DNA of 43,385 nt from a virus. Both the position numbers and the translations under genes were made by a program. The DNA is taken from the IMG/VR virus record IMGVR_UViG_3300032296_000135, positions 1 through 43,385 of that record; one strand, 5' to 3'. Each line of letters starts with the position of its first letter. Positions within the stretch are counted from its first letter, which is position 1. Shown piece after piece: positions 5,129 to 26,514 of the stretch. The notes beneath the pieces are model-generated. The model saw only the letters and a list, made by a program, of their open reading frames with translations. It did not search any database and was not told where the DNA came from.

Positions 5129-7621
5129 ATGCCTGAAATGCCTATCGACCCTGAGTTTGGTCGTTTCATCGCGGGGATCACGGAGACTGAAGACGGTGGT
5201 GCTTTAGTTGAGATGGAAGACGACGAGATGGAAGTTGAAGAGCTGGAGGATGGCTCTGCGATTGTCCGCGAGTCTGAGTTCAAAGGCCCCGAAGAAGACG
5301 AAGACTTCTACTCTAACCTTGCCGAGACGGTTGACGACCTCGATCTGAGCGTCCTTGCGACCAAGTATCTTGGGATGTTCGAGAAGGATAAGGAAGACCG
5401 CAAAGAGCGCGACAAGCAGTACGAGGATGGATTGCGTCGTACAGGCTTGGGGAACGATGCGCCGGGTGGTGCGAACTTCAACGGTGCCTCGAAGGTGGTG
5501 CATCCGATCATGGCTGAGGCTTGCGTAGACTTTGCTGCGCGGGCGATCAAAGAGCTGTTTCCACCTGATGGCCCAACTCGCACGAAGATTGTGGGTGAGG
5601 TTACGCCTGAGAAGACTGACAGGGCTGAGCGCAAGCGCGACTACATGAACTGGCAGTTGACTGAGCAGATCGAAGAGTATCGGGATGAGCAGGAGCAGAT
5701 GTTTACCCAGCTCCCGATGGGTGGCTCTCAGTACATGAAGATGTGGTACGACGAGCAGAAGAAGCGTCCTTGCTCGGAGTTCGTGCCGATTGACAACATC
5801 CTGTTGCCGTTTGCTGCTTCGAACTTCTACACGGCGCAGCGTGCGACTGAGATGCAGGACATTACCGAGTACGAGTTCCGTGCGCGTATTGATCGCGGGC
5901 TGTACAAGGATGTGGACTTGATCCGTGCCAGCATGGATCCTGAGCCTACAGGCCCTGAGAAGGCGAACGACAAGATTGAAGGCCGTAAGCGTGGCGAGAA
6001 CATTGATGGCTTGCGTCGCGTTTACCACTGCTATACGTACCTTGAGCTGGAAGACGACCCTCGGACGAATGGCAAGTCGGCTCCGTACATCCTGATGATC
6101 GACGAGTTGGACTCTGAGGTTGTTGGTTTGTACCGGAACTGGGAAGAGGGCGATGAGACGATGATGAAGCTCGACTGGATTGTCGAGTTTAAGTTCATCC
6201 CTTGGCGTGGCGCGTATGCGATTGGCCTGCCACACTTAATTGGTGGCTTGTCTGCTGCGTTGACGGGTGCTTTACGGGCGCTTTTAGACACCGCGCACAT
6301 CAATAACTCGGCGACGATGATCAAACTGAAGGGGGCGAAGGTCTCTGGGCAGTCGGATCAGATCGAAGTTACTGAGGTTAAGGAGATTGAAGCGGCTCCG
6401 GGAGTGGACGACATCCGCAAAGTAGCGATGCCGCTGCCATTTAACCCGCCAAGTCCGGTACTTTTTGAGCTTTTGGGGTGGCTGACGCAGGCTGCGAAGG
6501 GTGTGATCACCACTTCTGAGGAAAAAATCGCTGATGTGACCTCACAAGCGCCTGTTGGCACGACTTTGGCGATGATTGAGCAGGGCGCGGCGGTGTTTTC
6601 GGCGATCCATGCGCGTCTACATGAGTCTCAGAAGCGCGTTTTGATGATTTTGGGTCGGATTAACCGCTGGTATCTGGACGATCAGACGAAAGGCGACGTT
6701 GTTGCCGAGCTAGAGATCAGCCGAGACGACTTTAATCGGAATTCTGACGTCATTCCGGTGTCGGATCCGCATATCTTTAGCGAATCCCAGCGTATGGCGC
6801 AGACCCAGATGGTCATTTCGCTGATGGATAAGTACCCGCAGATGTTCGATCAGGCTGCGGTGATCACTAGGATTCTGAAGCAGGCGAAGATTCCGAACGT
6901 AAACGAGCTCATGCCTGCCTCTGCGAAGCCCGTAGAGGCCGCTGCAAGCGACGAAAACGCTGCGATGGCACTTGGTAAGCCTGCGTTCGCTTATCCCCGC
7001 CAAGACCACCTAGCGCACATCCAAGCGCATTTGGATTTTGCTAAGGATCCGATCTTTGGTTCCAATCCGCTGTTCGCTCAGAAGTTCATCCCTCAGGTGA
7101 TCGAGCACGCCAAGCAGCACATGATGCTCTGGTACACGAATCAGATTAACCAATACGCAACATCCGGCACGGAGATCAATCTGCAGAAGTATGCGGACAT
7201 CGATGCGCCTAAAGAGATTGATCGTACTGTGGCGGTGGCTTCTCAGCACGTGGCGATGGATAGCCAGCAGGTGTTTGCTCAGGTGTTGCCAGTATTGCAG
7301 CAGTTGAGCCAGCAGTTGCAGCAGATGACGCAGGCGCAGGCTGAGATGCAGAAGCGTCTGTTGGCTGACCCGCAGGCTCAGGCGGTACTGGAGTCGTCGC
7401 TGGCTGAGACACAGCGTCGAGCTGCACGAGATCAGGCTGACATTGCTCTGAAGAAAGACGAGCAGAAGATCGACATAGCCAAGAATGCTGAGGACAACCT
7501 CACGAAAGAACGTATTGCCACTGCAAAGATTAGCTTCGATGCAGACCGGCTACGTAAGGAGCAGGAAGACACTGCTATTTCGCTGCAAGAAGCAGCACAA
7601 CGCACTTTAGGGAGTCTGTAA
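5129..7621 (+). CDS. Portal protein
   Basis: The portal forms the dodecameric ring at one capsid vertex through which DNA enters and leaves, and it docks the terminase and the neck. The 830-residue length fits the large portals of P22-like short-tailed phages. Features include an acidic N-terminus (residues 1-70), a conserved core near 110-130 (NFNGASKVVHPIMAEACVDF), the segment PIDNILLPFAASNFYTA near 220-240, and a long Gln-rich coiled-coil C-terminus from about 690 to 825, comparable to a barrel or crown extension. The start ATG is preceded by AGAGGAAAG at a normal distance. The stop overlaps the next start (TAATG). Placement before scaffold and capsid genes supports the call. No other function fits as well. 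Confidence 0.9.
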   Translation: MPEMPIDPEFGRFIAGITETEDGGALVEMEDDEMEVEELEDGSAIVRESEFKGPEEDEDFYSNLAETVDDLDLSVLATKYLGMFEKDKEDRKERDKQYEDGLRRTGLGNDAPGGANFNGASKVVHPIMAEACVDFAARAIKELFPPDGPTRTKIVGEVTPEKTDRAERKRDYMNWQLTEQIEEYRDEQEQMFTQLPMGGSQYMKMWYDEQKKRPCSEFVPIDNILLPFAASNFYTAQRATEMQDITEYEFRARIDRGLYKDVDLIRASMDPEPTGPEKANDKIEGRKRGENIDGLRRVYHCYTYLELEDDPRTNGKSAPYILMIDELDSEVVGLYRNWEEGDETMMKLDWIVEFKFIPWRGAYAIGLPHLIGGLSAALTGALRALLDTAHINNSATMIKLKGAKVSGQSDQIEVTEVKEIEAAPGVDDIRKVAMPLPFNPPSPVLFELLGWLTQAAKGVITTSEEKIADVTSQAPVGTTLAMIEQGAAVFSAIHARLHESQKRVLMILGRINRWYLDDQTKGDVVAELEISRDDFNRNSDVIPVSDPHIFSESQRMAQTQMVISLMDKYPQMFDQAAVITRILKQAKIPNVNELMPASAKPVEAAASDENAAMALGKPAFAYPRQDHLAHIQAHLDFAKDPIFGSNPLFAQKFIPQVIEHAKQHMMLWYTNQINQYATSGTEINLQKYADIDAPKEIDRTVAVASQHVAMDSQQVFAQVLPVLQQLSQQLQQMTQAQAEMQKRLLADPQAQAVLESSLAETQRRAARDQADIALKKDEQKIDIAKNAEDNLTKERIATAKISFDADRLRKEQEDTAISLQEAAQRTLGSL

Positions 7622-7797: not shown

Positions 7798-7979
7798 GGT
7801 ATGTGTCCGACCTGATTGACGCGCTGAAGAACGAGCAGGCGAAGATTCAGCTAAGCCTTGCACAAGGGCACGCCCCTACGTTTGACTCGTATCAACGGCT
7901 GGTAGGCAATCACCAAGGCTTGCAAGATGCCTTGGACATTATTAACAATCTATTAAAGGAAGCAGATGAAGATGAATGA
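7794..7979 (+). CDS. Small helical hypothetical protein, 61 aa
   Basis: This 61-residue protein starts in an ATGA overlap and its end overlaps the GroES-like gene by 14 bases. The sequence is mostly helical: an N-terminal helix (MRYVSDLIDALKNEQAKIQL), then SYQRLVGNHQGLQDALDIIN, then an acidic tail. Small helical proteins of this kind are common next to portal genes in freshwater phages. The function is unknown; a head-assembly accessory role is a guess from position only. Confidence 0.7.
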   Translation: MRYVSDLIDALKNEQAKIQLSLAQGHAPTFDSYQRLVGNHQGLQDALDIINNLLKEADEDE

Positions 7980-8400
7980 GCCGGTAGCTTTTGACCAAGC
8001 TGAAATCGAGTGGGCATTTCCCACGGTTGATCCCGGTGCCAAACCTCTTGGAGCAAGAATCTTAGTTCAGTTACGCCGTGCCAAAAAGAAGGCAACTTCT
8101 GCGGGGATCATCCTAGTCGAAGAGACGAAGGAGACCGAGAAGTGGCAGAACATGGTGGCTAAGGTTATCGCAGTAGGCCCTTTGGCCTTCAAGAAGCGCG
8201 ACACAATGGAACCGTGGCCTGAGGGCTCGTGGTGCGAGGAGGGTGACTTTATTCGCGTCCCTAAGTGGGGCGGTGATCGCTGGGAAGTTCTCGTTGAGAG
8301 CCAGCCGGATGAAGATCCTGCGCTTTTTGCAGTGTTCAATGATCATGAGGTAATTGCCAAAGTAACAGGCGATCCTCTGTCTATGAGGGCTTTCGTATGA
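7966..8400 (+). CDS. GroES-like co-chaperonin
   Basis: The 144-residue protein keeps the order of GroES (Cpn10) elements: a first strand GARILVQLRRA (residues 29-39), a mobile-loop-like stretch SAGIILVEE (45-53) comparable to the GroEL-binding loop of bacterial GroES, a strand VAKVIAVGPLAF (64-75), GDFIRVPKW (93-101) and the terminal strand DHEVIAKV (126-133). It is longer than bacterial GroES (about 97 residues) because of a ~22-residue N-terminal extension and an insert near 76-92. Phage co-chaperonins such as T4 gp31 replace host GroES on GroEL to fold the capsid protein. Location between portal and scaffold fits that job. The AAGGA at 7956-7960 favours ATG 7966 over ATG 7972. The gene ends in an ATGA overlap with the scaffold gene. 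Confidence 0.85.
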   Translation: MKMNEPVAFDQAEIEWAFPTVDPGAKPLGARILVQLRRAKKKATSAGIILVEETKETEKWQNMVAKVIAVGPLAFKKRDTMEPWPEGSWCEEGDFIRVPKWGGDRWEVLVESQPDEDPALFAVFNDHEVIAKVTGDPLSMRAFV

Positions 8401-15980: not shown

Positions 15981-16316
15981 ATGCCGAGGTTTCTTGACAC
16001 ACTAGGTTACTCGGACATAGCGATTGCAGTCTGCGATCGCTGTAAGATGAAGCGTCCGCACGCCGATCTGTCAAAAGACCCGAACTTTCCGGGGCTGATG
16101 GTTTGTAGTCATAACTGTAAAGACCAGTTTGACCCGTATCGGTTACCGGCTAGAAAGACTGAGCGGATCACGCTTCGGTTCCCGCGCCCTGATGTTAGCG
16201 TGGCGGTAGATCCGAATGATATTGTGACGACAACTGGGTTTGTACTATCGACTAACCAAAACACAGATGATCCTGAGAACAACGGGAATCTGGATGTTAT
16301 TAGCACGGCACCATAA
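15981..16316 (+). CDS. Zinc-ribbon-like phage neck or tail protein
   Basis: The 111-residue protein begins MPRFLDTLGYSDIAIAVCDR and contains CDRC followed ~22 residues later by CSHNC, a spacing that could bind one zinc ion. The segment FDPYRLPARKTERITLRFPR is strongly conserved in my memory of this family, which lies beside gp4-like genes in many short-tailed phages. The role is unknown, probably structural in the neck. The start lies two bases after the previous stop and the end overlaps the fibre gene start (TAATG). Confidence 0.76.
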   Translation: MPRFLDTLGYSDIAIAVCDRCKMKRPHADLSKDPNFPGLMVCSHNCKDQFDPYRLPARKTERITLRFPRPDVSVAVDPNDIVTTTGFVLSTNQNTDDPENNGNLDVISTAP

Positions 16317-18604
16317 TGGCACAGGTCACGATTACCCAATTACCAGCCGCCCAGTCGCTTACTGGGACGGAGTCGGTTCCGATTAGCCAGAACGGGCAGA
16401 CCGTCCAGACGACGGTCGCGGCGATTGCTAATTCCCCGACGCAACAGCAGACATTCATTACCGTTAACACTGAGTCAACGCTGCCAAACTCGCGCAGGTT
16501 GCAGGGCGGTACGGGCGTAGGCCTGACGGACACCGGCGCTCTGGGTTCGATCTCAATCATCCTAAACGGTGCCTCTGGAAGCCTTGAATCCTCCACTAAC
16601 GGGATGATTGCCAAGACGAGCGGCAGCACCGTGGTGGGAAGGACGCTCACAGGCTCGTCTACAGGCGTTACAGTCACGAATGGCGACGGGGTGGCTGGTA
16701 ACCCAGTCATCGCGCTAAATGGCCCTGTAGGCTCTATAAATGGCCTCAGCGGGTCTGGCATCCTAGTGTTGCAGAACAGCTCCTCCGTGGGGGCTGTGCA
16801 GATCACCGGCACGGCAGGTGAGGTTGCGGTTACTGATGGCGATGGCCTGTTGGGCAACCCGACAATTTCTTTGGATGCTTCGGGTGTAGCCGCTGGTACT
16901 TATGGCTCTGGCACACAGGTAGGGCAGTTTGCGGTTGATAGCAAAGGCCGGATTACCTCTGCGACTAACGTCACGATCACGGGCTCAGAGAACGTCATCG
17001 GTGGTGCCGCAAACCAGATTCTGTATCAACTCGGCCCGAATTCAACCAGCTTCACCGTAGCCCCGACTTCTGCCGATACGTTCCTGAAGTGGGATGGCTC
17101 GGGGTTTGTTTGGGGTGCGATTGCCGGTGCGGGTACGGTTACTTCGGTTGATGGATCGGGTGGTACGACTGGTCTGACGGTCACTGGTGGCCCGATTACA
17201 TCTTCGGGAACTCTGACGCTAGGCGGCACCTTAATAGTTGCCAACGGCGGTACAGGCGCAACTTCTTTAACTGGTTACGTAAAAGGCAACGGAGTAAGTG
17301 CATTTACGGCTGCGGCGACTATCCCAAACACCGATATTACCGGTTTGGGAACGATGTCTACGCAAGCCGCGTCCTCGGTTGCGATCACTGGTGGCAACAT
17401 CAATGGCACGACCATAGGTGGTACGACACCGGCTGCGGGTACTTTTACCTCGGTGGCGATGACAACGGGCACGATTACCACGCCTCCGAGCAGTGGCAAC
17501 GACATCGTCAACAAGACCTACGCTGATTCGATTGCCTCAGGTATCAACTTCCACCAAGCCTGTAAGTACGCGACAACTGCGGCTTTAGCTGCGAATACGT
17601 ACAACAACGGGGTATCTGGGGTAGGTGCGACATTGACGGGTAACGTCAACGGAGCGCTTACGGTTGATGGGTATACGTTTACCTCGCCTGCTGACGATGG
17701 CACCCGGATTCTGGTCAAGAATGAGTCGAATTCGGCTCACAACGGCGTTTATACGCTGTCTGCAGCGGGAAGCGCTGGTGGCCCTTACATCCTAACTCGG
17801 GCGACCGATTTTGATACAGCAGGTACGGGCGTTGATCAGATTGATCAGGGTGACTTCTTCCTGATTACTTCGGGTACTGCGAACGCCAATACCTCGTGGG
17901 TACAGCAGACACCGCTACCCGTTATCGTAGGCACGACAGGCATTACCTTCACGCAGTTTGGCGCACCGCTGACTTATACAGCGGGAACGGGGCTTTCCGA
18001 GTCTCCGGCGTATACGTTCAATATTGCCAACACTGGGGTGACGTCAGGTAGTTATGGTGGTGCGGCAACCGCCGTTACGCTGGCGATCAATGCTCAGGGT
18101 CAGATCACCAGCGCAACGGATGTATCAATTGCGATTGCAGCTAGTCAGATTACCTCTGGGACGATTGATTCGGCACGTATCAGCGGCTCATACACTGGCA
18201 TTACGGGTGTCAATACGCTGACCGCAGGCACTTGGAACGCCACGACGATAGCTGTAGCCTATGGTGGCACAGGGCTGACAACCTACACCGCAGGCGATCT
18301 GATCTATGCGAGTGGCTCTGCAACGCTGTCTAAGCTCGGTCTTGGGGCGACAGGCTATGTTTTAGTGGCAGGGGCTGCAGCGCCTGAATACGTGGCTCAG
18401 AGCACCCTGTCTGTGGGTTCCGCTACGACGGCGACCAACGCTACGAACGTCGGCACAACATCTACGACGACGAATGCTGACTTCTTCATTCCGTTTGTTG
18501 CTGCCTCCACCACTGGCAATCAGGCACTTGGAGTAGACGCCGGTATTACCTACAATCCATCAACTAATGCGATTACTGCCGGAATATCCGGTGGGACGTT
18601 CTAA
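16316..18604 (+). CDS. Large tail fibre protein
   Basis: The 762-residue protein is Gly/Ser/Thr-rich and repetitive. The N-terminus (TITQLPAAQSLTGTESVPIS, then TTVAAIA) matches the attachment segment of the C1q-like protein at 13617. Two copies of a fibre unit are visible: TYGSGTQVGQFAVDSKGRIT near residue 195 and SYGGAATAVTLAINAQGQIT near 580, each followed by SAT and a short strand. A module with VANGGTGATSLTGYVKGNG and a domain from ~400 to 540 (YTLSAAGSAGGPYILTRATD) are common in tail fibres. The C-terminus ends AITAGISGGTF, nearly the same as the end of the protein at 31184. It probably forms a trimeric, extended fibre for host adsorption. Confidence 0.82.
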   Translation: MAQVTITQLPAAQSLTGTESVPISQNGQTVQTTVAAIANSPTQQQTFITVNTESTLPNSRRLQGGTGVGLTDTGALGSISIILNGASGSLESSTNGMIAKTSGSTVVGRTLTGSSTGVTVTNGDGVAGNPVIALNGPVGSINGLSGSGILVLQNSSSVGAVQITGTAGEVAVTDGDGLLGNPTISLDASGVAAGTYGSGTQVGQFAVDSKGRITSATNVTITGSENVIGGAANQILYQLGPNSTSFTVAPTSADTFLKWDGSGFVWGAIAGAGTVTSVDGSGGTTGLTVTGGPITSSGTLTLGGTLIVANGGTGATSLTGYVKGNGVSAFTAAATIPNTDITGLGTMSTQAASSVAITGGNINGTTIGGTTPAAGTFTSVAMTTGTITTPPSSGNDIVNKTYADSIASGINFHQACKYATTAALAANTYNNGVSGVGATLTGNVNGALTVDGYTFTSPADDGTRILVKNESNSAHNGVYTLSAAGSAGGPYILTRATDFDTAGTGVDQIDQGDFFLITSGTANANTSWVQQTPLPVIVGTTGITFTQFGAPLTYTAGTGLSESPAYTFNIANTGVTSGSYGGAATAVTLAINAQGQITSATDVSIAIAASQITSGTIDSARISGSYTGITGVNTLTAGTWNATTIAVAYGGTGLTTYTAGDLIYASGSATLSKLGLGATGYVLVAGAAAPEYVAQSTLSVGSATTATNATNVGTTSTTTNADFFIPFVAASTTGNQALGVDAGITYNPSTNAITAGISGGTF

Positions 18605-18614
18605 GGAGTAAGAA

Positions 18615-19397
18615 ATGGCACAAGCCGGATATACGCCGATTGTCATCTACCACAGCACGACGGGTTCGGCTGTTCCTACTGCTGGGAACCTAGCCCCCGG
18701 AGAGTTAGGGCTGAACATCGCAGACATGAAGCTGTACTGCGAAAACTCCTCGGGTGTGGTGACTTTGCTGGCCTCTGCTGCGGGTGCTTCTGGGGATGTG
18801 ACGTTAGCCGGTAATAACGCTTTTACAGGCGCAAACACCTTTTATAACGGAACAGGCCAGACGTTTGGCACGGCGACATCGACACAAGACGGATTGATTC
18901 TGGCAGGTCGAGCTGGTGGTAGTTCTTCGTATCGCGTGACATTACAGCCGGGAACTTTGTCAGCCAGCAGGGCGGTGACTTTCCCTGATTCGGATACAAC
19001 GGTTCCCATCGCATCTCAAACCCTGACATTCTCTGGCCCAACCGCTGCAAGAACCTATACGCTGCCGGATGAGGCTTCTTCGCTCGGGTTTAGGAACATT
19101 CCTGCGGTAGCTGATAAAACCACCTCTTACAGCCTGCAGACCTCAGACGTAGGTCGAGTGGTGGGCGTTGGTTCTGGCGGCTCGATTACGATCCCTGATG
19201 CGACGTTTTCTGCGGGTGATGCGGTCATCATCTTCAACAATACGACCGCAGGGATTACGATTACTTGCTCGATCACGACGGCTTATATTGCTGGAACGGA
19301 TACTGACAAGGCGACGATGACACTAGCGACTCGTGGTATTGCAAGCATACTGTTCGTATCTGGCACTGTGTGTGTTGTTACAGGGAATGTCACCTAA
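18615..19397 (+). CDS. Tail fibre protein with Mtd-like N-terminus
   Basis: The 260-residue protein begins with an attachment domain (AVPTAGNLAPGELGLNIADM, then KLYCENSSGVVTLLA) of the kind found at the N-terminus of many phage tropism proteins. A beta-helical fibre stretch follows (TFYNGTGQTFGTATSTQDGL), then TYTLPDEASSLGF, then a C-terminal module of about 68 residues (SITIPDATFSAGDAVIIFNN to the end). A diverged copy of that last module makes up the small gene at 26936. The start follows TAAGGAGTAAGAA; the stop overlaps the next start (TAATG). Host recognition is the likely role. Confidence 0.78.
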   Translation: MAQAGYTPIVIYHSTTGSAVPTAGNLAPGELGLNIADMKLYCENSSGVVTLLASAAGASGDVTLAGNNAFTGANTFYNGTGQTFGTATSTQDGLILAGRAGGSSSYRVTLQPGTLSASRAVTFPDSDTTVPIASQTLTFSGPTAARTYTLPDEASSLGFRNIPAVADKTTSYSLQTSDVGRVVGVGSGGSITIPDATFSAGDAVIIFNNTTAGITITCSITTAYIAGTDTDKATMTLATRGIASILFVSGTVCVVTGNVT

Positions 19398-21559
19398 TGG
19401 CGCTCGTACTCAAAAACAGAGTCAAGTCCACTACCACGACAACAGGTACGGGGACGATTACCCTTGGTGCCGCTCCGGCGGGGTATCAAGATTTTTCTGT
19501 GATTGGTAGTCCATCTAGTGGATGGGACACATCTGTTACTTTTTACGACCAATCATTTAGTGTTTTTGCTCAAGTAAGTAATCCGCAAGGCTTGTTTTTT
19601 AAGCCAGACGGTTTGAAAATGTATGTTGCAGGGCCTTCCATTGTTAATGAATATGATTTGTCTACGGCATGGGATGTTTCGACCGCCACTTATCTACAAA
19701 ATTTTTCAGTAAGTGCTAATGCACAAGGGTTATTTTTTAAGCCAGATGGTTTAAAAATGTATGTTGTTGACAGCTCTGGAAACGTTGTCAAAGAGTATGA
19801 TTTGTCATCTGCTTGGAACATTACTACAGCCAGTTTTCTTCAAAATTTTTCTGTAGCCACGCAAGAAACTGATCCTTTCTCAATATTTTTTAAGCCTGAC
19901 GGATTAAAAATGTATGTGGCAGGCTCTAATGAAAGCGTATATGAATATGATTTGTCTTCTGCTTGGAATATAAGCACGGCTTCTTATCTTCAAAGCGGTA
20001 GCGTTTTAACGGTTGGATCGAACACGCGTGGGTTATTTTTTAAACCTGACGGTTTGGCTCTGTTTATTCTGGCAGCAAATGATCAGCTTGGGTATTACAA
20101 GTTATCAACCGCTTGGAATGTTTCAACAATTTCCTATCAATCACAAGTTACGCTAACTACATCAGGCGGATCAATAACTGGCACAGATTTGTTTTTTAAG
20201 CCAGATGGTTCATTGATGTATGTTGTAGATGATGGAATAAGTGATGCGTTTGTAGCGCAATATGATGTTGGGGGTAATAATACCTACTACACCATCGTAG
20301 GTGGAACACAGTGGGAAGTCGGTATCGGTTTTGCTACCACAAGTGGACGAGGTCTCTTCCGCACACAGGTATTTGGCTCTTCCAACAGTGGCGCGAAGGT
20401 AGACTTTGCGGCAGGCACTAAAGATGTGTTGTGTGCTTACCCAGCTGCGGCGATGCCTCTAGGTGTGCCGTACTGCGATGATAGTGAGATAGGTACTGAT
20501 CTCTCAGGCTGGACAGCGTTCCAAGCAGCGTTGAATAACGGTGTGGCAGGTGGCACGACGTTCGGGAACAATAATACAAACGGCATAACAAGCACGTATG
20601 CAATAACTGATACAAGTGGAAGCAACAAGTATGCGGGCGGTGTTTTAGCGCCTAACGGCGACATTCACATGGTGTTATACAGTGGCGTTACCGTTGGGCA
20701 AAAAATATCAATTACTGGTGTTGTTTCAACATATTCCTTGATACAAACTACTGGCGCTTATACAGGAGGTGTTCTTGCTCCTAATGGCGATATTCACTTT
20801 ATTCCCAGACAGTTATCTGCTGGAAGCGCGGTAGGTCAAAAAATAAACGCCTCTGGCGTTGTCTCTACTTATTCATTGGCTTACACAGCCGTATCAGAAA
20901 TTTATTTTGGTGGTGTTTTGTCAGCAAGCGGAGAGGTGCATTTTGTTCCACACAGCGGAGTTAGAGGACAAAAAATTTCAACTGCTGGCGTTGTATCAAC
21001 ATATTCGTTGATCTACACCACAACAAATGCATACGCAGGCGGGGTATTAGCCCCTAATGGTGATATACATTTTGTTCCTCATAGGGCGGCAGTAGGGCAA
21101 AAAATATCATCAGCCGGAGTCGTTTCTACATATTCTTTGGTTTATACAACTCCTCTTGCTTATTGCGGGGGTGTTGTATCACCGAATGGAGATATTCATT
21201 TTATTCCGGCCTATGCAGATAGAGGGCAAAAAATATCAGTTACAGGTGTTGTGTCTACCTACTCATTAATTAGAACTACTGTTAATAGTTATTTTGGTGG
21301 TGTGTTAGCTCCAAATGGAGACATTCATTTTGTTCCCTATGATGCTCCTGTAGGGCAAAAAGTTTCAGCAACAGGCGTTGTTAGCACTTATTCTCTTGCA
21401 TTTACTGTGCCGAGCGCATATCAAGGTGGCGTCTTATCTCCAAATGGAAATATTTATTTTATTCCTGCAATAGCTTCAAGAGGTATGCAAATCTCCACCA
21501 ATCCCGGTCAGCCGCTCGGCCCCGGTGTCTGCCTCAGTTCTTTCCTGAACAAGTTCTAG
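19397..21559 (+). CDS. Propeller tail fibre A (5-bladed plus 7-bladed)
   Basis: The 720-residue protein has a ~33-residue N-terminus shared with the next two genes (LKNRVKSTTTTTGTGTITLG). Five repeats of ~50 residues follow, each with FFKPDG and a strand MYV, then YDLS-AW-STA-YLQ. A linker domain (YYTIVGGTQWEVGIG, then VDFAAGTKDVL) leads to seven repeats of ~42 residues with GGVLAPNGDIHF, GQKIS and GVVSTYSL. Repeat numbers and a split half-repeat before the first copy suggest closed 5- and 7-bladed beta-propellers. The C-terminus ends CLSSFLNKF. I infer a receptor-binding fibre. ATG 19397 overlaps the previous stop; an in-frame GTG at 19370 is unlikely. Repeat regions are AT-richer than the ends. 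Confidence 0.85.
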   Translation: MALVLKNRVKSTTTTTGTGTITLGAAPAGYQDFSVIGSPSSGWDTSVTFYDQSFSVFAQVSNPQGLFFKPDGLKMYVAGPSIVNEYDLSTAWDVSTATYLQNFSVSANAQGLFFKPDGLKMYVVDSSGNVVKEYDLSSAWNITTASFLQNFSVATQETDPFSIFFKPDGLKMYVAGSNESVYEYDLSSAWNISTASYLQSGSVLTVGSNTRGLFFKPDGLALFILAANDQLGYYKLSTAWNVSTISYQSQVTLTTSGGSITGTDLFFKPDGSLMYVVDDGISDAFVAQYDVGGNNTYYTIVGGTQWEVGIGFATTSGRGLFRTQVFGSSNSGAKVDFAAGTKDVLCAYPAAAMPLGVPYCDDSEIGTDLSGWTAFQAALNNGVAGGTTFGNNNTNGITSTYAITDTSGSNKYAGGVLAPNGDIHMVLYSGVTVGQKISITGVVSTYSLIQTTGAYTGGVLAPNGDIHFIPRQLSAGSAVGQKINASGVVSTYSLAYTAVSEIYFGGVLSASGEVHFVPHSGVRGQKISTAGVVSTYSLIYTTTNAYAGGVLAPNGDIHFVPHRAAVGQKISSAGVVSTYSLVYTTPLAYCGGVVSPNGDIHFIPAYADRGQKISVTGVVSTYSLIRTTVNSYFGGVLAPNGDIHFVPYDAPVGQKVSATGVVSTYSLAFTVPSAYQGGVLSPNGNIYFIPAIASRGMQISTNPGQPLGPGVCLSSFLNKF
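19520..20276 (+). repeat. Five FFKPDG propeller repeats, fibre A
   Basis: Five in-frame repeats of about 50 codons, each centred on FFKPDG plus a strand ending MYV or a variant (the fourth reads ALFIL). The chain before the first copy (SGWDTSVTFYDQ) could supply the closing strand of the last blade. Confidence 0.85.
20581..21500 (+). repeat. Seven GGVLAPNGDIHF propeller repeats, fibre A
   Basis: Seven in-frame repeats of about 42 codons. A half repeat (ITSTYAITDT) precedes the first GG copy, as expected for velcro closure of a ring of blades. Residues after HFIP and after STYSL vary most between copies. Confidence 0.87.
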
Positions 21560-21569
21560 GATCATTGTC

Positions 21570-22952
21570 ATGGCGTTTGTTACCAAAGATCGCATAAAAG
21601 TTACGAGCACCACGACAGGGACAGGTACGTTCACGCTAGGGGCAGCATCTACTGGCTATCAGAACTTTTCCGGCGTGGGCGATGGCAATCAGACCTATTA
21701 CACCATCGTAGGTGGAACTCAGTGGGAAGTAGGAATAGGCACGTATACCGCTAGTGGTACGACCTTATCCCGCGATACCGTGCTGGCTTCGTCTACCGGA
21801 TCTGTGATTGACTTTGCGGCGGGGACGAAAGATGTCTACGTACCGCAGCCTTCTGAGAACACACAGGGATCAGCGCCGACAGGGGACAACAGTTCTATTG
21901 GCACGGATGGCGTAGCATTCGACAACTTCCAGAAGAACTTGTACCAGAGCATCAACGCTGGGGTGACTTTTAGGAATAACGGTGTTGCGGGTGTGGTAAG
22001 TACGTTTAGTTTGGTTTATACAGGTGGCAGTTATTGGGGTGGTGTGTTTGCCCCTAGCGGAGATATACACTTTATCCCTAATGGAGCCGCTGTTGGTCAA
22101 AAAATAAATTCTTCTGGTGTTGTCTCTACTTATTCACTGGTTTACACCACAAGCGATGCGTATCAAGGCGGCGCATTGGCAGCAAATGGCGACATTCATT
22201 TTATTCCCAAAGACGCAAATAGAGGTCAAAAAGTAAACGCATCAGGCGTTGTTTCCACTTATTCTTTGGTTTATACGACAGCAGGTGCTTACACAGGCGG
22301 TGTTTTGTCTCCAAATGGAGATGTTCATTTTATTCCCCTAAATGCCAATAGGGGTCAAAAGGTGTCATCGGCGGGCGTTGTTTCTACTTATTCTTTAGTT
22401 TATACGAGAACAAACGCATATTTAGGTGGAGTTCTTGCACCGAACGGGGACATTCATTTTGTTCCTTATTATGCAAATAGGGGTCAAAAAATATCAGCCG
22501 CTGGGGTTGTGTCTACATATTCGCTGGTTTATACGTTATCTGAGGGATATGCTGGAGGCATATTGTCTCCAAACGGAGATATACACTTTGTTCCACAAAA
22601 GGCAAACGTAGGTCAAAAAATATCCTCAGCAGGAGTCGTATCCACTTATTCTTTAGTTTATACAGCAACAACAAACAAGTATGATGGTGGAGTTTTAGCT
22701 CCTAATGGTGATATTCATTTTGTTCCTTGCGATGCTAATGTTGGACAAAAAATATCAGCCATTGGTGTTGTATCTACATATTCATTAGTTTATACAACAA
22801 CAGGAGCATATCGAGGTGGTGTATTAAATTCAAGTGGTGATATTTATTTTGTTAAATCAACGAGTGCAACAGTAGGCCAAAAAATCTCCACCTGCGCCGC
22901 CATACCCTTCGGCCTTGACACCTGCCTAAGCTCATACCTCAATAAGTATTAA
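21570..22952 (+). CDS. Propeller tail fibre B (7-bladed only)
   Basis: The 460-residue paralogue has the shared N-terminus (TKDRIKVTSTTTGTGTFTLG), goes directly into the linker domain (YYTIVGGTQWEVGIGTYTAS, then DFAAGTKDVYV) and then into seven GGVLAPNGDIHF-type repeats preceded by a half repeat (GVVSTFSLVYTGG). It ends CLSSYLNKY. The 5-bladed propeller of its two neighbours is absent with clean edges. The gene lies ten bases after fibre A, with only a weak AGGAT before the ATG. I infer a shorter receptor-binding fibre that may form mixed or alternative fibres with A and C. Confidence 0.85.
   Translation: MAFVTKDRIKVTSTTTGTGTFTLGAASTGYQNFSGVGDGNQTYYTIVGGTQWEVGIGTYTASGTTLSRDTVLASSTGSVIDFAAGTKDVYVPQPSENTQGSAPTGDNSSIGTDGVAFDNFQKNLYQSINAGVTFRNNGVAGVVSTFSLVYTGGSYWGGVFAPSGDIHFIPNGAAVGQKINSSGVVSTYSLVYTTSDAYQGGALAANGDIHFIPKDANRGQKVNASGVVSTYSLVYTTAGAYTGGVLSPNGDVHFIPLNANRGQKVSSAGVVSTYSLVYTRTNAYLGGVLAPNGDIHFVPYYANRGQKISAAGVVSTYSLVYTLSEGYAGGILSPNGDIHFVPQKANVGQKISSAGVVSTYSLVYTATTNKYDGGVLAPNGDIHFVPCDANVGQKISAIGVVSTYSLVYTTTGAYRGGVLNSSGDIYFVKSTSATVGQKISTCAAIPFGLDTCLSSYLNKY
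21981..22890 (+). repeat. Seven GGVLAPNGDIHF propeller repeats, fibre B
   Basis: Seven in-frame copies plus a leading half repeat. Near-identical peptide units are encoded by clearly different synonymous codons in each copy. Confidence 0.87.
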
Positions 22953-22962
22953 GGATCACACC

Positions 22963-25140
22963 ATGCCTTATGTCGTTAAAGATAGAGTAAAAGTAACAAG
23001 CACAACGACTGGTACTGGCACGTTCACGCTCGGCGCGGCGGTCACAGGATTCCAAGGGTTTTCTTCGTTAGTTCCTAGTCCAGCATGGAATATCACATAT
23101 TCTAGTTATTTGCAGCTTAAAGACGTAGGGGCGCAAGAAACATCCCCGCAGGGTATATTTTTTAAGCCAGATGGTTTAAAGATGTATGTTGTTGGCGCAA
23201 CTGGCGATGACGTTAATGAATACGATTTGTCCTCCGCATGGGATATATCAACAGCCACATACCTTCAAGTTTTTTCGGTATCAGCCCAAGACACCTCGCC
23301 ACGAGATTTGTTTTTCAAGCCCGATGGTTTAAAGATGTATGTCGTTGGAGCAACCAACGATTCGGTTTATGAATATGATTTGTCATCTGCTTGGAATGTT
23401 TCTACAGCGTCTTACTTACAAACAAAATCCGTATCAGCACAAGACACAACCCCAACTGGAGTATTTTTTAAAGATGATGGCACCAAAATGTATGTTGTTG
23501 GTGGGACTGGAAATGACATAAATGAGTATGATTTATCGTCAGCTTGGGACATTTCCACTGCATCTTATTTAAGAAATTTTAGTGTTGTATCACAAACAAC
23601 ATTGCCACAGGGTGTGTTTTTTAAGTCGGACGGCTTAAAGATGTACATAATAGCCGCCAATAACATTTTTGAATATTCCTTAGGAACTGCTTGGAATATT
23701 TCAACTGCTGCGTATTCTTCTTTGTTTGAAACTAATTTACAAGGAACTGGAATATTTTTTAAGTCGGACGGCTTAAAGTTTTATATAACTGAAACTAGTA
23801 ATGCTGACGTTCGTGAATATGATTTAGCAACTTCCATTAATACTTATTATTGCCTCACCAATGGTACAGATTGGGAGGTTGGTATTGGCGAAGTTTCATA
23901 TCCCGGAACATCTTTGATTCGTAGCACTGTCCTTGAATCATCCAATAGCAACAACAAAGTAGATTGGAGTGCCGGAACTAAGGATGTGTTCTGTACTTTC
24001 CCCGCAGACGCGACAGAAGGAACAGTACCGCAGGGGGATACCAGTCAGGTAGGCACTGATCTGGTGGCGTGGACAAACCTGAAGAAAGAGCTAGACCGTA
24101 CCGTCATCAACGGTGTGCCGTACAACAATAATGGGCTTGGCGGCGTTTACAGTACGTATAGTTTGATTAATACGACTAGCTCAGGGACGGAGTTTTATAT
24201 AGGCGGCGTATTGGCGACTAACGGAGACATACACTTTATTCCTGTATATGCAACTAGAGGACAAAAAGTATCTTCATCTGGCGTTGTATCTACTTACGCA
24301 TTAGTTTACACAACAGGCGAAGGATATACGGGAGGTGTATTAGCTTCAAATGGAGACATACATTTTGTCCCACAAAAGGCAGCCGTTGGTCAAAAAATAT
24401 CTGCTTCAGGGGTCGTTTCTACATATTCGTTAGTAACAACTGGCACCCCGGGATATATGGGTGGTGTATTAGCGCCTAATGGTGATATACACTTTATTCC
24501 ATATTCTGCTTCGGTTGGGCAAAAAGTATCAGCAGCAGGTGTGGTATCAACTTATTCGTTGGTGTATACGACCGGCAATGCTTATTTTGGCGGAGTTTTA
24601 GCGCCAAATGGTGATATACATTTTGTTCCATTTAGTGCAAACAGGGGGCAAAAAATATCATCAGCGGGTGTTGTATCTACTTATTCATTAGTTTCAACAT
24701 CAACAGTAAATGGTCAATATATGGGCGGCGTTTTGGCAGCAAACGGCGACATACATTTTGTTCCTAGAGATGCTAGTCGAGGGCAAAAAATATCAGCGGC
24801 TGGTGTGGTTTCTACTTATTCTTTAATTTATACGACCGCAAACACCGCTTTCACTGGTGGAGTTCTTGCGCCAAATGGTGACATCCATTTTGTCCCATTT
24901 ACAGCTCCGGTTGGACAAAAGGTATCCGCATCGGGTGTTGTCTCAACATACAGTTTACTTAGTGTTCCCGGAGGGGGGGTATCTCAATATCTTGCTGGCG
25001 CGGTATTATCTCCAAGTGGAGATATTTATTTTGTTCCGGGTGGAGCATGGCCCAATTCAACAATGCCCGGTCTAAAAATATCCACCGGCACAACAAGAAA
25101 TATAGGCTACGCCCTATCGCCGTTCTTCAATAAATTTTAA
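22963..25140 (+). CDS. Propeller tail fibre C (5-bladed plus 7-bladed)
   Basis: The 725-residue protein repeats the layout of fibre A: shared N-terminus (VKDRVKVTSTTTGTGTFTLG), five FFK-DG repeats (FFKPDG twice, FFKDDG once, FFKSDG twice), linker domain (TYYCLTNGTDWEVGIG, then VDWSAGTKDVFC), seven GGVLAPNGDIHF repeats with a leading half repeat (GGVYSTYSLINTT), and the end GYALSPFFNKF. The ATG follows AAGGATCACACC. Repeat-rich parts are AT-rich while gene ends match the genome's composition. I infer a third receptor-binding fibre; the three genes look like products of duplication followed by divergence and domain loss or gain. Confidence 0.85.
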   Translation: MPYVVKDRVKVTSTTTGTGTFTLGAAVTGFQGFSSLVPSPAWNITYSSYLQLKDVGAQETSPQGIFFKPDGLKMYVVGATGDDVNEYDLSSAWDISTATYLQVFSVSAQDTSPRDLFFKPDGLKMYVVGATNDSVYEYDLSSAWNVSTASYLQTKSVSAQDTTPTGVFFKDDGTKMYVVGGTGNDINEYDLSSAWDISTASYLRNFSVVSQTTLPQGVFFKSDGLKMYIIAANNIFEYSLGTAWNISTAAYSSLFETNLQGTGIFFKSDGLKFYITETSNADVREYDLATSINTYYCLTNGTDWEVGIGEVSYPGTSLIRSTVLESSNSNNKVDWSAGTKDVFCTFPADATEGTVPQGDTSQVGTDLVAWTNLKKELDRTVINGVPYNNNGLGGVYSTYSLINTTSSGTEFYIGGVLATNGDIHFIPVYATRGQKVSSSGVVSTYALVYTTGEGYTGGVLASNGDIHFVPQKAAVGQKISASGVVSTYSLVTTGTPGYMGGVLAPNGDIHFIPYSASVGQKVSAAGVVSTYSLVYTTGNAYFGGVLAPNGDIHFVPFSANRGQKISSAGVVSTYSLVSTSTVNGQYMGGVLAANGDIHFVPRDASRGQKISAAGVVSTYSLIYTTANTAFTGGVLAPNGDIHFVPFTAPVGQKVSASGVVSTYSLLSVPGGGVSQYLAGAVLSPSGDIYFVPGGAWPNSTMPGLKISTGTTRNIGYALSPFFNKF
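23080..23835 (+). repeat. Five FFK-DG propeller repeats, fibre C
   Basis: Five copies of about 50 codons with the consensus GIFFKPDGLKMYVVG then EYDLSSAW-ISTASYLQ. An opening segment (AWNITYSSYLQ) matches the second half of the unit and could close the ring. Confidence 0.86.
24139..25086 (+). repeat. Seven GGVLAPNGDIHF propeller repeats, fibre C
   Basis: Seven copies of about 42 codons plus a leading half repeat. The last copy is diverged (YLAGAVLSPSGDIYFVP) and has a small insertion before GLKIS. Confidence 0.86.
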
Positions 25141-25161
25141 CCACCACACAAAGGAGAGAGT

Positions 25162-26514
25162 GTGTACAACCGAGAGAAAATCATCGCCGCGATGCAGGAA
25201 ATCTACGACGAGTCTAAAACTATTAAGCCATACGTCGTGATTGCACAACCTCGTCGCAACTTAGAAGAAACAGCCGCACAGAATTTCGATGGGTATGACG
25301 GTCTGCACGTAGACCTGATGGGCTTCTCACATGGCTTTTGCAATATCGGCGGTGAGAAGGTAGACGTTGCCCGTAACTACCTGATTGAGCAGGCGCTGGA
25401 GTCTGGTGCCAAGTACATGCTCTTTATCGGTGAGGATACGGTTGTTCCTTACGACGCATTCAAGAAGCTGATGCGTACGTCCGAGCAGTATCCTGACGCT
25501 GTGATCACGGGTGTGTACTACATCAAGTGTTCAGACGCGATGATCATGGTGCGTGAGGGTGACTGGATCACAATCCCGAACGTCGATCCGGGGCAGATCA
25601 TTGACGCTTGGCAGACTGGCATGGACATCATGCTAATCCCGATTAAGATCCTGCAAGACATGAAGGCAGAGAACCCTGACTTGCCCTTCTGCTGTATTGG
25701 CAACAACATTAATGACGAGATACCGTTCATTGGTGAGGACAACTTCTTTGTTCACCGTTTGCACAAGCGCGGCACCAAGCTGCTAGTCAATACGGACGTT
25801 CAGTGCCTGCACATGGACTTGGCGACAGGTATGTACACGGCGCATCCGTCGGTGGATTTGAAGAACTACTACACCAACATCCCGCCTACCAGACCGCTGA
25901 CGCTGGATGATAAAGACTTTATTGATCGGCGCTGGGCTGATCGTTTGCCTAAAGGCACTGGCCCCGGTGCTGGATATGCGGCAATCCTTGCTCAGATGCA
26001 GGAGGAAGGCCAGCCTATCCGCTTCAACATGGGTTGCGGTCGTGATCGGTTGGAAGGCTATATGGGTGTCGATATGCACAGCGACACCGACATCAAGATG
26101 GACATCATGGAGCTTGATCTGCCAGAGGGCTGTGCAGATGAGATATTTGGCAGTCATGTGATTGAGCATTTCCCGCAGCATCGAGCGCCGGGCGTATTGG
26201 CTAACTGGCACAAGACGTTGAAAGATGGCGGCAAGCTGGTGCTGGAGACGCCTGACCTTGAGGGGTTGTGCCGAGACTATTTGGAGCAGAGCGGCGCAGA
26301 TCAGCACATGACGGCGATGTGTATTTTTGGGGCGCATGTAGATAGGATTACGCCTGAGACTGAGAAGAACGGTGCGTTGTCTCCTCATCTGTGGGGCTAT
26401 ACCCCTAAGTCATTGGCAGACTTGTGCGCCCATGTGGGATTCAAAGACATCCAGATACTGCCGCCGACTGGGCAGCATCCGGGCAAGAACTTTAGATTGG
26501 AGGCTACAAAATGA
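25162..26514 (+). CDS. Glycosyltransferase-methyltransferase fusion protein
   Basis: The 450-residue protein joins two enzyme-like halves. Residues ~1-250 look like a GT-A glycosyltransferase: VDVARNYLIEQALESGAKYM leads to FIGEDTVVP (Glu91-Asp92) in the place of the metal-binding acidic motif, then ITGVYYIK and FIGEDNFFVHRLHKRGTKLL. Residues ~285-445 are a class I SAM-dependent methyltransferase: motif I FNMGCGRDRLEGYMGVD (288 onward), the acidic MDIMELDLP, then SHVIEHF and LKDGGKLVLETPDL. I infer modification of a glycan, on host surface, virion or DNA; the target is unknown. Position just after the fibre genes suggests a fibre- or receptor-related target. Start is GTG after AAAGGAGAGA. The end overlaps the next gene by four bases (ATGA). 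Confidence 0.82.
   Translation: MYNREKIIAAMQEIYDESKTIKPYVVIAQPRRNLEETAAQNFDGYDGLHVDLMGFSHGFCNIGGEKVDVARNYLIEQALESGAKYMLFIGEDTVVPYDAFKKLMRTSEQYPDAVITGVYYIKCSDAMIMVREGDWITIPNVDPGQIIDAWQTGMDIMLIPIKILQDMKAENPDLPFCCIGNNINDEIPFIGEDNFFVHRLHKRGTKLLVNTDVQCLHMDLATGMYTAHPSVDLKNYYTNIPPTRPLTLDDKDFIDRRWADRLPKGTGPGAGYAAILAQMQEEGQPIRFNMGCGRDRLEGYMGVDMHSDTDIKMDIMELDLPEGCADEIFGSHVIEHFPQHRAPGVLANWHKTLKDGGKLVLETPDLEGLCRDYLEQSGADQHMTAMCIFGAHVDRITPETEKNGALSPHLWGYTPKSLADLCAHVGFKDIQILPPTGQHPGKNFRLEATK

Follow-up and report, generated by a model that had tools for sequence, protein, structure and literature searches.

Three tandem candidate tail-fibre genes of an uncultured phage encode predicted beta-propellers with a conserved frame and a hypervariable face

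Sequence comparisons and structure predictions suggest that a linear virus record of 43,385 bases (IMG/VR IMGVR_UViG_3300032296_000135, analysed over its whole length and hereafter called the window) encodes three consecutive tail-fibre adhesins, A, B and C, with exchangeable receptor-binding propellers. We give this reading a probability of roughly three in four. The fold of the seven-repeat part of C, the repeat counts, the three-gene rule, the position-specific N-terminal modules, the variable loops and the step in divergence at the module boundary (clear at gene position 2) come from computation; receptor binding, the type of ligand, recombination as the cause of that step, the location in the virion and the oligomeric state are the parts that we infer. 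Each fibre would consist of an N-terminal docking module (N-module) and a terminal closed seven-bladed beta-propeller of the virginiamycin B lyase (Vgb lyase) kind, and in A and C the docking module would itself be interrupted by another propeller, probably a five-bladed one. The blades would have a frame in common, with residues within or next to the D-A and B-C loops of one face free to vary (about 49 positions per propeller), and the variable face would most likely bind a cell-surface receptor, probably a glycan. Related phages would swap propellers by recombination behind better-conserved docking modules. The folds are known ones; what is new is their arrangement (three genes in a row, five plus seven repeats) and the striking pattern of variation.

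The three genes lie in tandem on the plus strand (19397-25140), where a preliminary description of this DNA had correctly placed them. Indeed (i) gene position 1 encodes fibre A (19397..21559, start ATG at 19397, 720 amino acids), in which an N-module with an inserted five-repeat domain (19517..20266, residues 41-290) is followed by a seven-repeat domain (20591..21502, about residues 399-702, identified by the repeat profile and by Pfam Vgb_lyase with E 8.9e-11, below the gathering score) and by the tail CLSSFLNKF, (ii) gene position 2 encodes fibre B (21570..22952, 460 amino acids), composed of an uninterrupted N-module, a seven-repeat domain (21999..22901, about residues 144-444, identified by the repeat profile and by Pfam Vgb_lyase) and the tail CLSSYLNKY, and (iii) gene position 3 encodes fibre C (22963..25140, 725 amino acids), which has the same order as A, namely an N-module with an inserted five-repeat domain (23080..23829, residues 40-289), a seven-repeat domain (24151..25089, about residues 397-709) and the tail ALSPFFNKF. 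About 35 N-terminal residues are common to the three proteins, and the five-repeat domain of A is inserted between 'FSVIG' and 'NTYYTIVGGTQWEVG', which adjoin in B. Profiles of the units find a 43-residue unit seven times in each of A, B and C, and a unit of about 51 residues five times in A, five times in C and not at all in B. The preliminary description had claimed seven copies of about 42 residues in all three proteins, five of about 50 residues in A and C, and shared N-terminal and C-terminal ends, and each of these claims was confirmed. The seven-repeat unit has the consensus STYSLVYT...AY.GGVLAPNGDIHFVP..A.RGQKIS..GVV, and the five-repeat unit of A and C is centred on FFKPDGLKMYVVG. The repeat pattern is not due to chance, as Pfam Vgb_lyase recognises the repeats of B at E 2.2e-15 and homologues show the same counts again.

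An AlphaFold model of C, built with 54 sequences (mean predicted local distance difference test score, pLDDT, 82.5; predicted template modelling score, pTM, 0.51), places 28 strands in the seven-repeat part (1 + 6x4 + 3, residues 395-707). Each domain of C has one leading and three closing strands, as needed for a ring joined by both its ends, and the "leading half repeat" reported earlier corresponds in the model to a single outer strand at the front, which supplies the fourth strand of the last blade. Residues 389-710 of C match Vgb lyase 2z2o_D with Z 33.2 and a root-mean-square deviation (rmsd) of 2.3, all 295 of the 295 residues of 2z2o_D being aligned, and Foldseek gives template modelling (TM) scores by target of 0.87-0.89 for this domain against Vgb lyase; the fold search, run with the whole of C, covered in effect residues 389-714 only. 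Furthermore, against the Pfam family Vgb_lyase (PF24684, gathering score 50 bits) B scores 56.7, A 41.6 and C 38.4 bits, and B matches the PDB entry 2qc5 at E 4.1e-09. The computations show the seven-repeat domain of C, as modelled, to be a closed seven-bladed beta-propeller of the Vgb-lyase kind, ring closure being judged from the match to the Vgb fold and not from coordinates. A closed propeller is what the preliminary description had proposed, and an open solenoid would have refuted it. The corresponding domains of A and B are taken, by homology, as probable seven-bladed propellers.

Repeat counts in homologues were taken from the best 80 of 117 loci found with B, the best 80 of 502 found with the five-repeat unit and a third set of the best 80 of 148 (72 distinct); as these are best-scoring subsets, the counts describe close relatives. 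Among the 80 loci found with B together with the window, 94 of 97 complete open reading frames (ORFs) with the 43-residue repeat have seven copies, and the three others are pieces: in L030 the gene is divided between two ORFs that overlap, and the L012 ORF is a fragment that begins inside the repeats. When the two further locus sets and five stretches of phage records are added, 143 of 150 distinct complete seven-repeat proteins have seven copies, one has 14 and the remaining six have 3, 3, 4, 5, 5 and 6. In the protein with 14 copies, L226, these form two sets of seven, of which the earlier one sits within the N-module. For the five-repeat unit, 70 of 76 complete ORFs, a set that includes some contigs fetched twice and four phage records, have 5 (22 ORFs), 10 (44) or 15 (4) copies, and multiples of five are found in 51 of 56 ORFs after dereplication at 90%. 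The six other ORFs have 4, 6, 7, 8, 11 and 14 copies; the eight copies of L142 are a five followed by a three, and L128, L167, L168 and L170 are divergent, so that the profile, judged by eye, probably misses copies. ORFs cut by a locus end were excluded (5 from the count of 97, 14 from the count of 150, and 24 five-repeat and 5 seven-repeat ORFs in the run that gave the five-repeat count). In all six ten-copy examples inspected, the linker is placed after the fifth FFKPDG anchor. The expectation that repeat numbers in homologues would not vary freely is borne out by these figures, with one genuine six in each of the two families. As separate observations, the seven-repeat gene at L238:6246-8936 is broken after the fourth blade, and its remaining three blades are encoded about 500 bases further along by an ORF of their own, beyond a glycine-rich stretch. 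The front part of the L216 and L229 proteins seems to take different extra domains; what we take, by eye, to be a laminin-G/concanavalin-like stretch lies in the N-module of L216:3191-5212 and before the propeller in L229:6237-8015.

Variation along the seven-repeat unit was measured as entropy in proteins with seven copies only (672 copies, 588 of them distinct, from 96 proteins). Across the distinct copies, conservation is 91% or higher at 21 positions, positions 9, 10, 11, 14, 29, 30 and 32 are hypervariable (2.65-3.73 bits) and 15 positions are intermediate. Among 378 ungapped 43-residue copies, the amino acids of the frame differ between copies by 0.03-0.05 and those of the seven variable positions by 0.82-0.83. 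At fourfold-degenerate silent sites the difference is 0.57-0.59 within a protein, 0.66 between phages and 0.69 among the copies of the window; because the frame is near-constant while silent sites differ widely, it is held mainly by selection. When the 21 copies of the window are taken alone, six of those seven positions are the most variable ones and position 9 ranks twelfth. Insertions are confined to two stretches of the unit, after positions 8-14 and after positions 29-32. In the model of C, DSSP assigns the variable positions to the D-A and B-C loops or to the start of strand A; for example, residues 494-499 lie between or in strands 485-489 and 498-503, and residues 514-517 lie between strands 509-513 and 519-522. 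Strand order places the D-A and B-C loops on one face of the ring, and the variable face is deduced from this order and from DSSP.

Of 39 distinct clusters flanked by more than 1 kb on each side, counting that of the window, 37 contain exactly three seven-repeat ORFs; L232 contains two, and L169, from a Cylindrospermopsis phage, contains one. The rule also applies to a second type of trio, which encodes proteins of about 370-390 amino acids matching B only from about residue 90-118 and sits on contigs of about 15 to 177 kb. Seven-repeat genes are present in 37 loci, counting the window, and the 27 clusters among them that have all three genes complete were used for a tree of the first type. 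In this tree the N-modules group by gene position with six label changes (minimum 2; shuffled mean 38.7, with 71 of the 81 rows different and shuffles that ignore relatedness), and the propellers mix more than the N-modules, with 12 label changes. The tails are also mostly position-specific, with consensus CLSSFLNKF, CLSSYLNKF and ALSPFFNKF over 27 each, with exceptions. Since N-modules and tails are sorted by position, the triplication is old, and the three places have been kept apart.

These data bear on how the three proteins could be assembled. A, B and C could be three independent homomeric adhesins with separate attachment points and three alternative receptors, which is a version of the proposed reading and does not exclude it. 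We rate this arrangement at somewhat under an even chance: the position-specific N-modules and tails fit three docking roles, and related N-modules are encoded in fibre genes of phages without a seven-repeat domain, but independence alone leaves the rule of exactly three, observed in 37 of 39 clusters and with two N-terminus types, unexplained. Alternatively, though this is a rather unlikely proposal, A, B and C could form one obligate heterotrimeric fibre tip with one chain of each and three different hypervariable faces shown at once. Such a tip would be an antibody-like scaffold, with a fixed frame, free binding loops on 21 blades and exchange of whole propellers from phage to phage. The presence of three genes would then reflect the threefold symmetry of fibres, and the product of the conserved methyltransferase/glycosyltransferase-like gene downstream of the trio could alter either the fibre or its target.

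Phage tail proteins often carry depolymerases, and the seven-bladed domains could be enzymes, namely lyases or depolymerases acting on cell-surface polymers. Vgb lyase, with which they have kinship in sequence and fold, is itself an enzyme, B exceeds the gathering score of PF24684 and matches 2qc5, and C matches the Vgb fold. However, in an alignment of B only, made with modest confidence, the last-blade His of 2qc5 falls on R415, at the hypervariable repeat position 14, and the Glu two residues before that His falls on A413. This His was taken as the catalytic H270 named in the title of 2z2p, a correspondence drawn from motif and numbering; as His270 is not kept in the alignment of B, an enzymatic role is disfavoured and seems improbable. 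With the presumed catalytic His on variable position 14, the free face seems to correspond to the ligand face in Vgb lyase and to lack its chemistry. The fibres (C by its fold match, B by its Pfam score) and the Vgb lyases (PF24684; 2qc5, 2z2n, 2z2o, 2z2p) have a seven-bladed propeller, a fold and a recognisable sequence in common, and differ in that the blades of the fibres are near-uniform, the domain sits at the end of a phage fibre-like protein and the position of the catalytic His appears hypervariable in the fibre repeats.

Comparison with related loci points to an exchange of propellers. Relative to L040, the fourfold silent difference is 0.10-0.29 in the flanking genes and 0.09 in the N-module at gene position 2, and 0.57 in the propeller at the same position. 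From N-module to propeller at position 2, it rises from 0.12 to 0.70 relative to L008 and from 0.15 to 0.60 relative to L006. Replacement of whole propellers by recombination would be the simplest cause of this step.

The idea that the repeats arose by recent tandem amplification, with a count of no selected meaning, is largely contradicted and very improbable. The frame residues of the blades are highly alike, the silent difference within proteins (0.59) is slightly smaller than that between phages (0.66), which allows for some homogenisation, and a study of repetitive propellers describes amplification of a single blade as a frequent origin of new propellers, blade numbers forming a continuum around the family median (PMC9218822). 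Nevertheless, the count is seven in 143 of 150 proteins, and when the 43-residue blades of 84 distinct proteins are compared, a DNA identity of at least 92% is seen in two pairs only, of which one lies within a single protein. As silent sites still differ by 0.57-0.59 within a protein, the blades must be mostly old; recent duplication of the repeats was rejected on the wide silent differences and the scarcity of near-identical pairs. According to the same study, WRAP of Nostoc likewise has near-uniform blades in a ring, but is a very recent amplification without synonymous changes, whereas the fibre blades differ widely at silent sites (PMC9218822). The fixed counts of seven and five across many phages also contrast with the continuum of blade numbers outlined there for highly repetitive propellers (PMC9218822). 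Generation of the variation by a diversity-generating retroelement would agree with its restriction to set positions and is just as improbable, as the variation is not adenine-directed (A as first base 0.22 at position 14 and 0.26 at position 29, all four bases being common) and no PF00078 reverse transcriptase was found in 18 of 18 records, which are possibly fragments, in a search without a template-repeat component and with a control positive in 3 of 14 known genomes.

Several points weigh against the reading of A, B and C as adhesins with exchangeable receptor-binding propellers. The 21 frame and seven variable positions were picked after the entropies had been seen, variable loops are common in propellers generally, and there is intermediate variation on the other side of the ring too, in the C-D turn, where positions 39 and 40, mostly small residues, reach 1.94 and 2.25 bits. 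The step in divergence is weaker at gene positions 1 and 3 (N-modules 0.27-0.48, propellers 0.51-0.65), and the propeller of A is 85% identical to its counterpart in L006. Genuine sixes occur in L216, a seven-repeat protein with six copies, and in L096:3603-6704, a close relative whose 11 five-repeat copies are six before the linker and five after it, in clear departure from multiples of five. A whole-chain pTM of 0.51 does not fix how the domains of C are arranged. None of the three proteins has a functional family in PHROGs, so that the label 'fibre' derives from the N-module, the locus and the neighbours.

As regards that label, A, B and C would qualify as tail fibres on sequence grounds, by an N-module in common with annotated tail fibres and by their position in a tail-fibre locus. 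A tblastn search with B matched 12 of 50,697 phage records, none of them covering 80% of the protein. Its propeller part is matched at 24-35% by two Cylindrospermopsis and two Streptococcus suis phage records, and its N-module by eight records at 41-75% identity, five of which are annotated tail fibre; the identity is 75% and 62% to N-termini so annotated in MW202481 and CRP-6. A near-identity search of the phage records with positions 18000-26500 of the window gave no match. A scan of genome contigs with B returned 21 stretches fitting the pattern, none of which encodes a relative, so no host or prophage link was obtained from them.

The five-repeat domain is probably a five-bladed propeller, an assignment that draws on strand counts, on pLDDT and on copy numbers that are multiples of five. 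It has 20 strands in the model of C (1 + 4x4 + 3, residues 48-287). Residues 1-345 of A were modelled separately from 14 sequences, with a mean pLDDT of 78.4 and values above 90 for most of residues 51-250. This model shows 18 strand elements in the five-repeat part, of which 74-88 and 97-114 each span two strands by repeat register, giving 20. The best solved matches of this part of A are NHL and WD40 propellers, which we take to have six or seven blades (7nyq, Z 17.9, 215 residues aligned, rmsd 3.4), and the five-bladed assignment leans for this reason on strand count and repeat number. The preliminary claim of a closed propeller for the five repeats is therefore a probable one: 20 strands in C and, by repeat register, in A and counts of 5, 10 and 15 agree with it, and the best solved matches are to propellers of other blade numbers. 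Foldseek with the five-repeat part of A returned one solved entry of a five-bladed fragment, 6r60, at rank 40 among the matches listed. In the separate search that gave the 7nyq match, Gp45 of Staphylococcus phage phi11 was not among the 50 entries listed, and the two may nonetheless be related. The models of C and of A 1-345 have no long helices; the phi11 type of receptor-binding protein (RBP) is built of a coiled-coil stem, a five-bladed platform and a tower. In 485 ungapped copies of the five-repeat unit (320 distinct), positions 22, 24, 40 and 41 are the most variable (2.56-3.33 bits), followed by 21 (2.23), and by the model of A they fall in D-A and B-C. Relatives of the five-repeat domain of C, at 37-50% identity, are encoded by Lentibacter phage ICBM2, Roseobacter phages CRP-9, CRP-13, CRP-738 and CRP-2 and Synechococcus phage S-SKS1, in proteins annotated as hypothetical or without annotation; no seven-repeat domain was detected in these records, which are outside the 12 that match B. 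This propeller is frequent in uncultured phages, with 502 stretches encoding a relative, and comes as one, two or three runs of five, often without a seven-repeat domain (L086-L165).

Propellers have been reported in other phage receptor-binding proteins. According to one structural study, phi11 Gp45 contains a five-bladed propeller and is a homotrimer with stem, platform, tower and one propeller per chain, the C-terminal domain of phiKZ gp131 (4GBF) is seven-bladed and PRD1 P2 is a distorted five-bladed propeller, the latter two being cited as proposed or known receptor-binding proteins (PMC4901313). By comparison with Gp45, the five-repeat domain is here inserted in the N-terminal module, the seven-bladed one follows and three genes stand in tandem; gp131 and P2 are single propellers, and the accessible part of that paper mentions no trio or 5+7 arrangement (PMC4901313). 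Beta-propeller lectins are also present in some injection-system fibres, as stated in a further paper (PMC12923769). A literature search that covered few subscription papers found no title or abstract describing three tandem propeller fibres. The preliminary description had stated that no such phage fibre set was described, and this stands for the trio and the 5+7 arrangement, found neither in that literature nor in the 50,697 phage records, and has to be narrowed for single propellers, which are reported in phage RBPs (PMC4901313). The multivalent or multi-host recognition suggested in the same description may be a use of the three fibres. The fibres would represent a recurrent recognition system of uncultured phages, with a near-invariant ring frame, a free face and nearly always three per phage. 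They offer a way to test by what means phages with no evident retroelement diversify their receptor binding, and the frame, on which the variable loops are mapped, lends itself to studies of binding specificity.

The gene that follows the trio (25162..26514, plus strand) encodes a product with a methyltransferase domain above the Pfam cut-off and a weak glycosyltransferase match in PHROGs. Of 38 other trios that are followed by more than 1.5 kb of sequence, 37 have a homologue of this gene beginning no more than 300 bases from their last propeller gene, and L041 is the one that has none there; tblastn with this gene gave no match in the 50,697 phage records. A homologue also follows trios with a different N-terminus, for example L228 (71% identity). 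Upstream of the trio, 16316..19397 (plus strand) contains two tail-fibre-like genes encoding 762 and 260 amino acids with weak PHROG tail matches, the best match of the 762-residue protein being a family of unknown function. Further upstream, the window encodes a terminase (175-1356), a portal (5129-7621), a GroES-like protein and a capsid protein. Judged by the portal (61% identity), MW202545 is the closest phage record; its gene order resembles that of the window, and it has genes named tail fibre and endosialidase after the tail adaptor. Relatives of the portal in Caulobacter and Roseobacter phages would suggest, as no more than a guess, an alphaproteobacterial host. The GroES-like co-chaperonin gene (7966-8400) lies between portal and capsid, and MW202545 has a chaperonin-10 gene at the equivalent place.

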